From: Oscillospiraceae bacterium
GTDB lineage: Bacteria; Bacillota; Clostridia; Oscillospirales; Acutalibacteraceae
DNA: 38,677 bases
Assembly: GCA_902792985.1 (NCBI GenBank)
Contig: CADBBT010000041.1
Span: 1-38,677, forward strand
Reading direction: 5' to 3'
Numbering within the stretch: the stretch's first letter is position 1; the number at the start of each line of letters is the position of its first letter. The translations under genes were made by a program, and so were the position numbers. This document shows, one piece after another, positions 5,637-20,380 of the stretch. The notes beneath the pieces were generated by a model. That model was given only the letters and a program-made list of their open reading frames with translations. It searched no databases and had not been told where the DNA came from.

Positions 5637-7649
5637 TTATTTGCGCAGACCGAACAGTGCGAGGATGCTGTGGAAGAAGCCGATCAGGACACCAGGGAAG
5701 CCGGTATGGGTGCCGCCGCAATAACGGCAGGAACCGCTTTGCTGGGGCTGAGGCTGCGGCGCCGGATTTGTCGGTTGAGTCGGGTTGGTGGGATTGATTG
5801 GGTCTGTTGGATTTGTTGGGTCTATCGGTTCCTCTACATCCTTGATGTGCACACCACAACGTGTGCAATTGCCGGCAGCATCCGGAGCAGTATGTTCGAG
5901 GGCAGAGATGATGCTTCCGGTGGAAAGCGTCTTGCCGCAAGAAACGCAAACGGTGTCACCTGTGTAGCCCGCATTCAGACAGTCAGCCGCTTTTGCATTC
6001 TCAATCTTTATTGTGTTGTGGTTACAACTCCATGTTGCGGTAATCATATCGGTGACATTATTGGTTGCACCGAAGGTATATGTAGCCGCTGCTGTCGTAG
6101 AAGACAGTTTGCCGTTAGTTCCGCTCCGTGTCCATCCGGTAAATGTATAACCACTGCGTGTCGGCACCGGAATCGCTTTGGTGGTGTTATAATTTTGTTT
6201 GAATGTCTGAACCGATGCCGAACTGTTCCATGTGCCACCGTAGGGATCAACTTTGAGCGTGCTGGAATTGGTGGTGAAATTAAGATAAATAGTATTAGAT
6301 CCGTTCATAGTTCCTTTGATTACGCCGGATTTTACACCATTATATGTATGACCTGTAGTTGCTTTAATATCTTTAATTTCAAAAGCTGTTCCACAACTAA
6401 TCAGATTTGCCCAATCAGTTATATCGTTTAAATAAAGTTTTCCATCAAAATAAAGATCAAACGTCCCATAGCTTCCTAAACTGCCACTGTTGCTGCCATC
6501 TAGATATCCATTAACGTCAAAAGCATAATTTCCTAAAAAGATGTCCGGTGCAGACTGATTTGAACTATTACCCATATTATCATACGCATAAACATGAGTG
6601 ATATACTGTCCATCTTCATTATTGTGATCAGACTTCTTGATCGTACAGCTAACCGAATTTCCGGAAGGAGTTACCCACTGCCAAAGCAAATCGTCTTGTC
6701 CGTTTTTAGGTGTCCATGTAGCAAATCCAACACTTGAAACACCTATATTGTCACTGACATTGCAAGTTACAATGTAGCCACCGGAAACGTGCTTGAAACT
6801 GATGTTCGAAATCGTTGGTGAAATTTCATCGACATCATAAACAATTCGATCTGTAGTAATTTTTCCATTCGTTCCATATACATAAAAGTCACAAACAAAA
6901 CTTTTTGCTCCGCTGTCGTGGTTGCTGTGAGGGACATCATAGTAGTATATTGTTCCATGTGGTCCTCCTACAGAGCAATCATACCACCTCAAATCAGACT
7001 GGCTTCCAACAGACCAAACTGCTAAACTCACGTGATCAATTGCAACTACGCTCGGGTCGACAACACAATTTGGACGAAATGAAGTGCGATCAGATAGCGT
7101 ATAATCTAAATATGTATACTCAATTCTAGGCATGTTTGGATTTGGATTGTCAAATCTTGGACTTGACAGCAAATAAGAAAAATTGTATTTTCCAAACATA
7201 CTTGCGCTTTTGGAAATTGTATTGTCCCATTTAATTCCACAAGAACGCACTTTCGTTCCACCGGAATAATTGCCGTTGCCATTACAGTCAACAAACGTAA
7301 TCGTATTACCGGATACACTTTGTACGAAAATAGTATGTCCTGAACCACTGGTATTACCGTATTGCACAATATCACCAGCTTTGACATTGGAAATAGAGTT
7401 CACCTGAGGCCAGTTTTTCCAGCTTCCTCCAAACACACTATCCGCAATTAGGCGAGCAAAGCCCCAGCACTGGTGTCCGCCGTCATAATAAGCTGTCCAT
7501 GTGCTATAGTTTGGGTATTGACTTCTCAATGTGCTTAATCTAGAATTGAAATCACTTTCTGTAATTGCTTCTGCTTCCATCACCGGCACGGCGCACACCA
7601 GCATCATTAAAGCGAGAATAATAGACAAGATTTGTTTGACTTTTTTCAT
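5637..7649 (-). CDS. Secreted CHAP/NlpC-P60-like amidase with GBS-Bsp-like and Listeria-Bacteroides repeats
   Basis: 670 aa. Signal peptide at residues 1-28. A CHAP-like domain spans about 30-165: HQCWGFA supplies Cys61, GHTIFV supplies His105, and Asp121 follows in FVDCN. Two GBS-Bsp-like repeats follow (about 202-275 and 280-370, each with a DDL/SDLRW-Y core), then a Listeria-Bacteroides-type repeat (about 465-540, PTRSGYTFTGW), a CxxC pair region (557-598), a Pro/Thr/Asn linker (605-637) and a short C-terminal CRYCGGTHTG plus hydrophobic tail (641-670). Predicted role: peptidoglycan amidase or endopeptidase acting outside the cell. The start at 7649 is fixed by AAAGGGGAAG and the signal peptide; the frame to 7736 is open but lies inside the leader RNA's terminator. 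The body is distinctly more AT-rich than its neighbours, which suggests acquisition. It is preceded by the structured RNA at 7694-7883. Confidence 0.85.
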   Translation of the reverse strand: MKKVKQILSIILALMMLVCAVPVMEAEAITESDFNSRLSTLRSQYPNYSTWTAYYDGGHQCWGFARLIADSVFGGSWKNWPQVNSISNVKAGDIVQYGNTSGSGHTIFVQSVSGNTITFVDCNGNGNYSGGTKVRSCGIKWDNTISKSASMFGKYNFSYLLSSPRFDNPNPNMPRIEYTYLDYTLSDRTSFRPNCVVDPSVVAIDHVSLAVWSVGSQSDLRWYDCSVGGPHGTIYYYDVPHSNHDSGAKSFVCDFYVYGTNGKITTDRIVYDVDEISPTISNISFKHVSGGYIVTCNVSDNIGVSSVGFATWTPKNGQDDLLWQWVTPSGNSVSCTIKKSDHNNEDGQYITHVYAYDNMGNSSNQSAPDIFLGNYAFDVNGYLDGSNSGSLGSYGTFDLYFDGKLYLNDITDWANLISCGTAFEIKDIKATTGHTYNGVKSGVIKGTMNGSNTIYLNFTTNSSTLKVDPYGGTWNSSASVQTFKQNYNTTKAIPVPTRSGYTFTGWTRSGTNGKLSSTTAAATYTFGATNNVTDMITATWSCNHNTIKIENAKAADCLNAGYTGDTVCVSCGKTLSTGSIISALEHTAPDAAGNCTRCGVHIKDVEEPIDPTNPTDPINPTNPTQPTNPAPQPQPQQSGSCRYCGGTHTGFPGVLIGFFHSILALFGLRK

Positions 7650-7693: not shown

Positions 7694-7718
7694 AAAAAAT
7701 GCGTCCAAGAAGGACGCA
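7694..7718 (-). terminator. Terminator closing structured RNA copy 1
   Basis: TGCGTCC (7718-7712) and GGACGCA (7706-7700) with a 5-nt loop, followed by six T on the minus strand. The GTGC that begins this stem could instead pair with the upstream GCAC of the pseudoknot strand. Confidence 0.85.
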
Positions 7719-7883
7719 CAAAAAGTGCAATCCCACTTGTCGCCAAACAAAAGTAGTCTATCAGCCATACACACAGGAAGGTCACGCATAGACAGATTGC
7801 ACTTTTTTACAAACTGCGCGTGAAGCCCTGTGTGTTCGCAGGGTAAAAAAATATGTATGGATAATTTCCACTTTTGTTTGGCA
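7694..7883 (-). ncRNA. Structured leader RNA or sRNA, copy 1, with pseudoknot and terminator
   Basis: Minus-strand RNA of about 190 nt. Outer stem: GCCAAACAAAAGT (from 7882-7870) pairs with ACTTTTGTTTGGC (7754-7742), 13 perfect pairs. Inside are P2 CCATACA/TGTATGG (7860-7854 with 7771-7765), hairpin P3 CCCTG/CAGGG (7843-7839 with 7830-7826) and hairpin P4 TCACGC/GCGTGA (7823-7818 with 7787-7782). The P4 loop carries AAAAAGTGCAATC (7807-7795), which pairs with GATTGCACTTTTT (7732-7720) beyond the outer stem and so makes a pseudoknot. An intrinsic terminator follows (TGCGTCC/GGACGCA, T-run). A second copy at 10774-10973 has the same fold with different helix sequences. The CHAP gene ATG is 45 nt beyond the terminator with no other promoter seen. 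I do not recognise the family. Confidence 0.75.
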
Positions 7884-7888
7884 CCTTC

Positions 7889-7917
7889 ACTCTATCACAT
7901 TTCCTGCAAATAGTCAA
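7889..7917 (-). promoter_or_regulatory. Promoter of structured RNA copy 1
   Basis: TTGACT (7912-7917), 17 nt, TAGAGT (7889-7894) on the minus strand, followed by GAAGGTGC. The block ATGTGRTAGAGTRAAGGTGC is shared with copy 2. Confidence 0.75.
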
Positions 7918-10430: not shown

Positions 10431-10739
10431 TCATACTTTGATTTCATTACTGATTCCAAGGCATATGTCATTCTCATCAAATAGTAATGCAATATGATAA
10501 CCCGTTGATTGCCATTGACGCAATGTTTTTCCGTCACCCATAGCAGATATAGCACTCGGTTGTCCACAGGCTTTCACAATTTCGTCAAGTGTTTTTCCTG
10601 CAATCACACCGTTTGTGTCTTTTGTAAGCATAGAAAACCGTGTCTGAAGCATTGTTCCCGGAGCTTTAACCAATGCGTGTATAATGAGATACAGTATGAG
10701 TCCACCAATCAACGGTCCAACAAAATACAAAAACTCCAT
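10431..10739 (-). CDS. Membrane-anchored small protein with BamE/SmpA-like fold pattern
   Basis: 102 aa. One N-terminal hydrophobic segment (about residues 4-24). The following region GKTLDEIVKACGQPSA...QWQSTGYHIALLFDENDICLGI has the turn and beta pattern seen in small SmpA/OmlA-like domains (G-x-T-x-x-E-V then G-x-P, then a W-x-x-x-x-Y strand), but similarity is too weak to name it firmly. GAAGGGAGGG is a strong ribosome binding site 7-8 nt before the ATG. The only visible promoter lies upstream of the structured RNA, so this gene is probably expressed by readthrough of that RNA's terminator. Confidence 0.7.
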   Translation of the reverse strand: MEFLYFVGPLIGGLILYLIIHALVKAPGTMLQTRFSMLTKDTNGVIAGKTLDEIVKACGQPSAISAMGDGKTLRQWQSTGYHIALLFDENDICLGISNEIKV

Positions 10740-10772: not shown

Positions 10773-10806
10773 GAAAAAAAATGCGCCCCTGCAAGAACAG
10801 AGGCGC
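10773..10806 (-). terminator. Terminator closing structured RNA copy 2
   Basis: GCGCC (10806-10802) with GGCGC (10787-10783) plus inner CTG/CAG pairing, followed by eight or more T on the minus strand. Confidence 0.8.
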
Positions 10807-10973
10807 TAAAAAATGCTTTTCTCTGTTTTTGCTGCGACACAAAAAATCTAAGATTTCAGTTTATCAAATCAAACGGAAATACGAGAAAGCACTTTTTTAA
10901 AGTCACTTTCCCTTTGATATGACAAACCTGATATGATTCTTTACGAAAAACTCGCTTAGATTTTTTATGTCGC
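10774..10973 (-). ncRNA. Structured leader RNA or sRNA, copy 2
   Basis: Minus-strand RNA of about 200 nt with the same architecture as copy 1. Outer stem of 19 pairs: 10973-10955 with 10852-10834, one G-U. P2: ATCATATCA (10937-10929) with TGATTTGAT (10871-10863), one mismatch. Hairpin P3: TTTG/CAAA (10926-10923 with 10916-10913). Hairpin P4: GGAAA/TTTCC (10911-10907 with 10879-10875). The P4 loop holds the pseudoknot strand AAAAAAGTGCTTTCTC (10898-10883), which pairs with GAGAAAAGCATTTTTT (10823-10808) beyond the outer stem, with one bulge on each side. The terminator follows. AAAAAAGTGC is identical in both copies, while the stems have diverged but still pair. The next gene's ATG (10739) is about 34 nt beyond the terminator. 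Confidence 0.75.
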
Positions 10974-10979
10974 ACCTTT

Positions 10980-11008
10980 ACTCTACCACATCTCCCCTGA
11001 AAAATCAA
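10980..11008 (-). promoter_or_regulatory. Promoter of structured RNA copy 2
   Basis: TTGATT (11003-11008), 17 nt, TAGAGT (10980-10985) on the minus strand, then AAAGGTGC, as in copy 1. Confidence 0.75.
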
Positions 11009-20020: not shown

Positions 20021-20076
20021 AAAACACTCACCGCATCGAATGTGCAGTAAGCGCTTTTATGGAGCGGATGACGGGG
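20021..20076. repeat. tRNA-Gly 3' end plus terminator (inner copy)
   Basis: The functional copy: it overlaps the tRNA-Gly 3' end (20060-20076) and continues into the first terminator hairpin of the tRNA operon. A G-to-A change relative to the outer copy weakens the base of this hairpin. Confidence 0.9.
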
Positions 20077-20135
20077 CTCGAACCCGCTACCTCCACCTTG
20101 GCAAGGTGGCGCTCTACCAGATGAGCTACATCCGC
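20060..20135 (-). tRNA. tRNA-Gly (GCC)
   Basis: 76 nt including encoded CCA. 7-bp acceptor stem GCGGATG/CATCCGC, D-arm TAGCTC...GAGC, anticodon GCC inside the CTTGCCAAG loop region, T-arm GCGGG-TTCGAGC-CCCGT. Last gene of a four-tRNA operon. Confidence 0.97.
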
Positions 20136-20139
20136 AAAA

Positions 20140-20215
20140 TGGTGCTTCCGGTCGGAATCGAACCAACGACACGTGGATTTTCAGTCCACTGCTCTACCAA
20201 CTGAGCTACAGAAGC
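20140..20215 (-). tRNA. tRNA-Phe (GAA)
   Basis: 76 nt with encoded CCA. Acceptor GCTTCTG/CGGAAGC, anticodon loop CTGAAAA with GAA, T-loop TTCGATT. Separated from tRNA-Gly by 4 nt. Confidence 0.97.
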
Positions 20216-20221
20216 ATAAAA

Positions 20222-20298
20222 TGGCGACCCGGAACGGGCTCGAACCGTCGACCTCTAGCGTGACAGGCTAGCGTTCTAACCAACTGAACTACCGGGCC
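20222..20298 (-). tRNA. tRNA-Asp (GTC)
   Basis: 77 nt with encoded CCA. Acceptor GGCCCGG/CCGGGTC with discriminator G, anticodon GTC in CTGTCAC, T-loop TTCGAGC. Confidence 0.97.
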
Positions 20299-20304
20299 AT
20301 TTCG

Positions 20305-20380
20305 TGGTGGGAACAACAGGGCTCGAACCTGTGACCCTCTGCTTGTAAGGCAGATGCTCTCCCAGCTGAGCTATGCTCCC
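20305..20380 (-). tRNA. tRNA-Val (TAC)
   Basis: 76 nt with encoded CCA. Acceptor GGGAGCA/TGTTCCC, anticodon TAC in CTTACAA, T-loop TTCGAGC. First gene of the operon. Confidence 0.97.

Follow-up and report, generated by a model that had tools for sequence, protein, structure and literature searches.

The fluoride (crcB) and ZTP (pfl) riboswitches are transcription-terminating riboswitches with a pseudoknot beside the expression platform. T-box leaders are long, decide between an antiterminator and a terminator and occur several times per genome, and the c-di-GMP riboswitches of Clostridia regulate surface and secreted proteins; in ToxI-type RNAs, short repeats, a pseudoknot and a terminator precede the gene. 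A part of the discovery paper PMC8040213 describes type III toxin-antitoxin RNAs such as ToxI as structured RNAs directly upstream of a gene, and a passage of PMC11706538 describes the raiA motif (ModT RNA) as a structured RNA that is common in Bacillota. The element described here, of which two copies lie in the analysed stretch of 38,677 nucleotides (the window), is a genuine, widespread leader RNA family that is absent from the copy of Rfam searched and is built like a transcription-terminating riboswitch.

Like the fluoride and ZTP riboswitches, the element lies in a 5' leader and combines an aptamer-like pseudoknotted fold with a mutually exclusive antiterminator and terminator; unlike these, it has no Rfam match, it has a long P1/P2 arm and a promoter locked to P1, its pseudoknot strand doubles as one half of an apical hairpin and its tandem units carry their own promoter and terminator. 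With T-box leaders it shares the length, the choice between antiterminator and terminator and the presence of several copies per genome, but it does not match the T-box covariance model of Rfam, which led us to reject a T-box leader, and the commonest downstream protein families (25 of 63 were listed) are not those of amino-acid genes. The raiA motif is likewise a structured RNA common in Bacillota, whereas the element lacks an Rfam match and is a multi-copy leader with an antiterminator, found before many different genes. As in ToxI, a structured RNA with a pseudoknot and a terminator lies directly 5' of a gene; the unit of the element is however about 146-233 nt long, in contrast to the short repeats of ToxI, the downstream proteins are mainly of the envelope type, and no ToxN-like family (ToxN/CptN/TenpN-type) is among the 25 of 63 downstream Pfam families listed.

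Both copies of the window are encoded on the minus strand. The promoter of copy 1 consists of a -35 element TTGACT (7912-7917), read from the sequence at a place that is fixed across the family, and a -10 element TAGAGT (7889-7894), separated by a spacer of 17 nt; the start-site block ATGTGATAGAGTGAAGGTGC is present in this copy. The RNA extends from P1 to the U run of the terminator (7694-7886; 136.4 bits with the covariance model R1, which had this copy in its training set). The outer stem P1 has 13 bp (7870-7882 with 7742-7754) and is the helix for which covariation is described below; it is followed by P2 (7854-7860/7765-7771), the hairpin P3 (7826-7843, strands 7839-7843/7826-7830) and the apical hairpin P4 (7782-7823, strands 7818-7823/7782-7787), the loop of which holds the pseudoknot strand, segment 2 (AAAAAGTGCAATC, 7795-7807). 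This strand can form 13 bp with segment 3 (GATTGCACTTTTT, 7720-7732). The 5' arm of the antiterminator (7731-7740) overlaps segment 3 and its 3' arm (7706-7714) overlaps the 5' arm and loop of the intrinsic terminator (hairpin 7700-7718, U run 7694-7699). The gene under copy 1 starts with an ATG at 7649 and encodes a CHAP / GBS_Bsp-like repeat protein with a signal-peptide-like start (5637-7649, minus strand). Copy 2 has its -35 element TTGATT at 11003-11008 and its -10 element TAGAGT at 10980-10985, and its RNA (10776-10977; 98.7 bits with R1, also a training sequence) has an outer stem P1 of 19 bp (10955-10973 with 10834-10852), a pseudoknot between segment 2 (10883-10897) and segment 3 (10809-10823), antiterminator arms at 10821-10832 (5') and 10791-10802 (3') and a terminator hairpin at 10783-10807. 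The gene that follows on the same strand (10431-10739) encodes a protein of 102 amino acids with a hydrophobic start and no Pfam match.

A preliminary description of the window had compared these two copies, and its observations held on re-reading the sequence: the promoter TTGAYT-17-TAGAGT is common to both (7889-7917 and 10980-11008), an identical 10-mer occurs in both, the outer stems of 13 and 19 bp differ in sequence and both pair, and the order of outer stem, P2, P3, P4, pseudoknot strands and terminator is the same. Both copies are also structured well beyond expectation, with z-scores of -6.69 for copy 1 and -8.09 for copy 2 and none of 200 shuffles as good in either case. Two copies by themselves could not prove a conserved family; a failure to find further homologues with compensatory changes had been named as a result that would speak against it, but many were found, and the architecture recurs with such changes in 97 distinct copies. 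The proposal of a pseudoknotted RNA family outside the known classes is thus supported. It is incomplete in that the antiterminator, the position in cis before genes, the other copies of the genome and the spread across the class were all missed.

No Rfam family matches the element in the window, in either copy or in the 20 relatives that were scanned; a match to a known family was among the results that the preliminary description had named as refuting it. At gathering scores, the scan of the whole window returned only four tRNAs (the four tRNA genes are clustered on the minus strand at 20063-20380). A permissive scan around both copies (E<=10) gave 14 matches, all below the gathering scores of their families; the lowest E-values over copy 2 belong to RsaF (0.04), Spot_42 (0.06) and ncS54 (0.035), are far below gathering scores and come from matches that take in the terminator hairpin and its U run. 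The 20 relatives (E<=0.1) yielded six tRNAs and one sub-threshold match antisense to a tRNA. Membership in any family of Rfam 15 was therefore rejected, as there is no match at a curated gathering score. In 6 of the 20 loci scanned (L057, L059, L060, L063, L074 and L096), the element has a tRNA gene at a distance of no more than about 0.5 kb. No motif of this kind turned up in full-text literature searches or in passages of the discovery papers PMC8040213, PMC11109978 and PMC8632094; the first of these is stated to hold 3161 candidates, and the element may be among its anonymous ones.

Searches with blastn within the window's own genome identified further copies of the element, and this genome has ten matches to R1, nine of which were listed and read as sequence. 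Two places in the same genome, on C51 and C5, were rejected as copies by eye, and a third (C4:69177) proved to be a look-alike promoter without the RNA. This look-alike promoter (L015:1150-1360, identical to C4:69150-69360) precedes a small ORF, and the TTGATT..TAGAGT style of promoter may be general in the genus. For wider searches, two covariance models were used: R1, built from 22 copies of this genus, and R2, built from 98 R1 matches. Matches to R1 are present in 29 of 34 genomes of the genus (E<=0.01), with up to 22 matches in one genome, and, at the family level (E<=0.001), in 103 of 300 genomes (53 of 135 genera). With R2 (E<=1e-6), the order has matches in 100 of 295 genomes (60 of 149 genera) and the class in 76 of 291 genomes (48 of 181 genera), while in a sample of 299 genomes of the phylum (E<=1e-5) the window's own genome was the sole match (10 of the 21 genomes listed are this genome itself or belong to its order or class). 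The samples share some genomes and the E-values of the models are rough; true copies also give antisense matches of up to 47.7 bits with R1, and the genus and family counts, taken at weak E-values, may therefore include a few of these. The 39 R1 matches that were inspected by eye all have a visible P1, A-rich strand, linker, linker partner and terminator, and a pattern scan for the long subtype identified at least 119 stretches in named records.

Of the 80 matches listed, 79 are from metagenome-assembled genomes and one is from an isolate, Pumilibacter intestinalis; the labels of the listed records are mostly Clostridia, Clostridiales, Oscillospiraceae or Ruminococcus, and many are from animal gut samples. 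The almost exclusive origin from metagenome-assembled genomes among these matches may explain why the element was missed: a regulatory RNA that is present in about a quarter of the sampled genomes of a class, and many times over in some, is not in the copy of Rfam searched.

The element also occurs in tandem arrays of two or three units, each with its own promoter and terminator where the upstream part could be seen; such arrays are at the loci L108, L109, L110, L112, L113 and L114, and L065 has two matches too. Tandem arrays and high copy numbers would also fit a repeated or mobile DNA element, or a part of a phage, that has no function as RNA. This reading is exceedingly improbable and is largely refuted by the compensatory changes: copies within one genome differ in sequence yet keep their pairing, the pattern of the long subtype's 3' part found only three stretches in the viral collection, near-identical by eye, a phage search with copy 1 gave no match and a plasmid search with one copy of the long subtype gave a single match of 41 bases. 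The three viral stretches (L126, L127 and L128, on contigs classed as viral) have the element before the gene of a probable zinc-ribbon protein.

In an alignment of the 97 distinct copies (A4), P1 is 99.4% paired and has double-sided changes at all ten of its pairs; over the entire modelled structure pairing reaches 88.9%, compared with 76.0% in shuffled alignments and 32.5-50.4% when partners were slid against each other, and the apical hairpin 1:2 is 71.1% paired. As A4 was fitted to the structure of R1, these pairing counts lean towards R1. A pseudoknot cannot enter a model of the R1 type and was therefore tested by swapping strands between copies, using the first 30 nt after P1, a stretch that can reach into the terminator: in 94 of 97 copies the copy's own strands bind more strongly than the average over swapped partners, and the own strand ranks within the top tenth of partners in 53 and within the top quarter in 79 of the 97. 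A third helix, the antiterminator, pairs the linker after P1 with the 5' arm and loop of the terminator. It has at least eight pairs in all of 96 copies, and in all 96 the own strands beat the mean of the swapped ones (one of the 97 copies, L118, was left out here and in the overlap and permutation tests described below, since no terminator was parsed). The antiterminator has a mean energy of -15.9 kcal/mol, similar to the -14.3 kcal/mol of the terminator.

Swap tests are inflated by related copies, and they were therefore repeated with 13 representatives whose linkers are at least six edits apart, with the stretch cut before the terminator. For pseudoknot and antiterminator alike, none of 20000 permutations reached the observed mean. 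The own strand beats the mean in 12 of the 13 for the pseudoknot and in all 13 for the antiterminator, and ranks first among all partners in 3 and 8 of the 13, respectively; for the pseudoknot it is among the top three partners in 10 of the 13. Within the 22 copies of the short subtype, the pseudoknot is 89.5% paired with covariation not above that of shuffles, indicating that its support comes from the comparison between subtypes. In the same 22 copies the antiterminator is 85.0% paired (1 of 500 shuffles as high) and the apical hairpin 70.0% paired (9 of 500 shuffles as high), which is moderate support for these two helices.

Five strands of alternating sense can be distinguished, and in 5' to 3' order they pair as apical hairpin (1:2), pseudoknot (2:3), antiterminator (3:4) and terminator (4:5). 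Neighbouring pairings compete for the same nucleotides: the antiterminator has at least 4 nt in common with the pseudoknot in 96 of 96 copies and at least 4 nt in common with the terminator, again in 96 of 96, and strand 2 is common to apical hairpin and pseudoknot in 94 of 96. Comparison of the copies shows that the alternative pairings are possible in nearly every copy examined and that the partners change together from copy to copy. Because the pairings overlap, a read-through state (1:2 with 3:4) and a termination state (2:3 with 4:5) exclude each other, and these overlaps assign the pseudoknot to the OFF state. The summed energies of the two states are -24.7 and -31.1, respectively, before the cost of the pseudoknot loop, and with that cost still to be paid neither state is clearly dominant. 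When the 3' arm of the terminator is removed from copy 1, the antiterminator forms (-16.6 kcal/mol); the full stretch folds into the terminator and a small upstream hairpin (-17.8).

The element is probably a new cis-acting, riboswitch-like transcription attenuator, in the order promoter, structured leader, terminator and regulated gene. The transcript would start at the foot of P1, and P1 and P2 would hold the apical hairpin, in which segments 1 and 2 pair. Segment 2 could re-pair with segment 3, just 3' of P1, to form the pseudoknot, segment 3 could instead re-pair with segment 4 (the 5' arm and loop of the terminator) to form the antiterminator, and segment 4 could re-pair with segment 5 to form the terminator. 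A signal, which may be a small molecule, an ion or a protein, is proposed to stabilise the fold of P1, P2 and pseudoknot, freeing segment 4 so that transcription stops; with no signal the antiterminator would form and the gene would be read, the direction of control being part of the proposal. The five-strand layout makes this a testable model of transcription attenuation. Two points tell against the proposal: no obvious ligand pocket was located in the structure, and the genes that follow the element are diverse. The leader has a conserved structured domain at the 5' side of the gene and, as far as sequence can tell, an expression platform with mutually exclusive structures, as riboswitches do; membership among the riboswitches is provisional and awaits a ligand.

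The same structural evidence would fit control of the attenuator by a protein rather than a metabolite, with an RNA-binding protein specific to the class holding the pseudoknot or the antiterminator. The helix sequences turn over freely and few unpaired bases look invariant by eye, which is compatible with such a protein. Leaders that bind proteins are for the most part small and belong to a single gene family, whereas the element is large, contains a pseudoknot and has 63 Pfam families among 106 downstream proteins; we regard control by a protein as unlikely, if the most serious of the alternatives. Alternating strands also recall the attenuators of amino-acid operons, where a ribosome on a leader peptide makes the choice, and ORFs of at least eight codons with a Shine-Dalgarno sequence and a start are present in 39 of the 97 copies, compared with 24.2 expected from mononucleotide shuffles. 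However, of the 63 ORFs in these 39 copies, 59 have their start in the terminator or else at or beyond the P1 3' strand region (52 start with TTG or GTG), and the only four that begin earlier do so at four different places and encode differing peptides. A conserved leader peptide ahead of the switching strands was therefore rejected, as no common peptide is encoded there, and ribosome-mediated attenuation is very improbable.

The best-scoring -10 element ends 6-7 nt before the first pair of P1 in 92 of 97 copies, which places the expected start of the RNA at the foot of P1, and the promoter spacer is 17 nt in 85 of 97 copies (the scoring slightly favours 17). In copy 1, the transcript start near 7883 that the preliminary description predicted agrees with this conserved promoter position. 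On the same strand, an ORF starts within 300 nt in 128 of 131 copies, the median distance from the terminator being 37.5 nt. Of the remaining three copies, two have no more than 116 nt of downstream sequence and one is the upstream member of a tandem pair. The presence of some ORF start within 300 nt says little, as it is found at 346 of 393 random places in the same loci, but the quality of the starts differs: an ORF start with a ribosome-binding match follows 101 of 131 copies and 102 of 393 random places, and in 115 of 131 copies the downstream ORF exceeds every opposing frame in length, compared with 132 of 393 random places. The strictest test asks for an ORF of 60 codons or more that has a ribosome-binding match and starts with ATG no further than 60 nt from the terminator; it is passed by 63 of 131 copies, by 8 of 393 random places and by 3 of 125 stretches leading away from the promoter.

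These numbers bear directly on whether the element might be a stand-alone, trans-acting small RNA that lies before genes by chance. Its own promoter at a fixed distance, its own terminator, the several copies per genome and the tandem arrays would all suit such an RNA. A stand-alone RNA should however have no tie to the gene downstream, and the excess of strong gene starts just 3' of the terminator is such a tie; moreover, a conserved antiterminator has no evident purpose in an RNA that is simply terminated, and homologous genes keep an element of unrelated sequence. The gene under copy 2 is an example of the latter: it has no match in 149 other sampled genomes of its family (E<=1e-6), but a homologue with 57% identity in another family of the order is also directly behind an element, and the two RNAs have no significant blastn similarity (best E 0.18). 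A trans-acting RNA is thus quite improbable, and the attenuator in cis is preferred.

If the attenuator acts in cis, a common element allows the regulon to be read from sequence alone. An N-terminal hydrophobic segment is present in 70% of 149 downstream proteins of at least 150 amino acids but in only 20% of 244 other ORFs of that length from 80 named loci, and any membrane-like segment in 83% and 31%, respectively, as determined by a hydropathy rule, not by a signal-peptide predictor. The Pfam comparison took in 106 of 109 downstream proteins, and the 63 families that it found, 25 of which were listed, include BspA-type leucine-rich repeats (13 proteins), Zn_Ribbon_1 (5), DUF6273 (4) and CHAP (3). 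The regulon is mainly made up of envelope and secreted proteins.

In these surface and secreted targets, the element resembles the c-di-GMP riboswitches of Clostridia, and a c-di-GMP riboswitch too divergent for the Rfam models would account for the likeness. The element has no match to the Rfam c-di-GMP models, though, and GGDEF domains are scarce where the element is common: they were found in 6 of 34 genomes of the genus (E<=0.001) and above the cut-off in only 3 of 34, in contrast to 29 of 34 for the element, and none was found in the window's own draft genome, which is about 89% complete (as these are drafts, absence is not absolute). This scarcity makes a c-di-GMP riboswitch so unlikely that we give it hardly any credence. 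We consider it conceivable, with some reserve, that the attenuator represents a riboswitch class that is new. With between one and some twenty copies per genome in roughly one quarter of the genomes sampled from this bacterial class, it would respond to a signal inside the cell and coordinate the surface and secreted proteins of gut Clostridia that are largely uncultured. The identity of the signal would reveal what these bacteria sense when they choose their surface and secreted proteins, and a new riboswitch class would, if true, serve as signature RNA for a so far undescribed signalling system.

The short protein L107:681-1043 behind an element has a sub-cut-off match to the YspA SLOG family. 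Another short protein behind an element, L110:677-1003, resembles SLOG proteins by eye, and two homologues of it likewise follow other elements. On C37 of the window's own genome, the gene downstream of the copy (L106:1488-1892) encodes a sigma-70-like factor.
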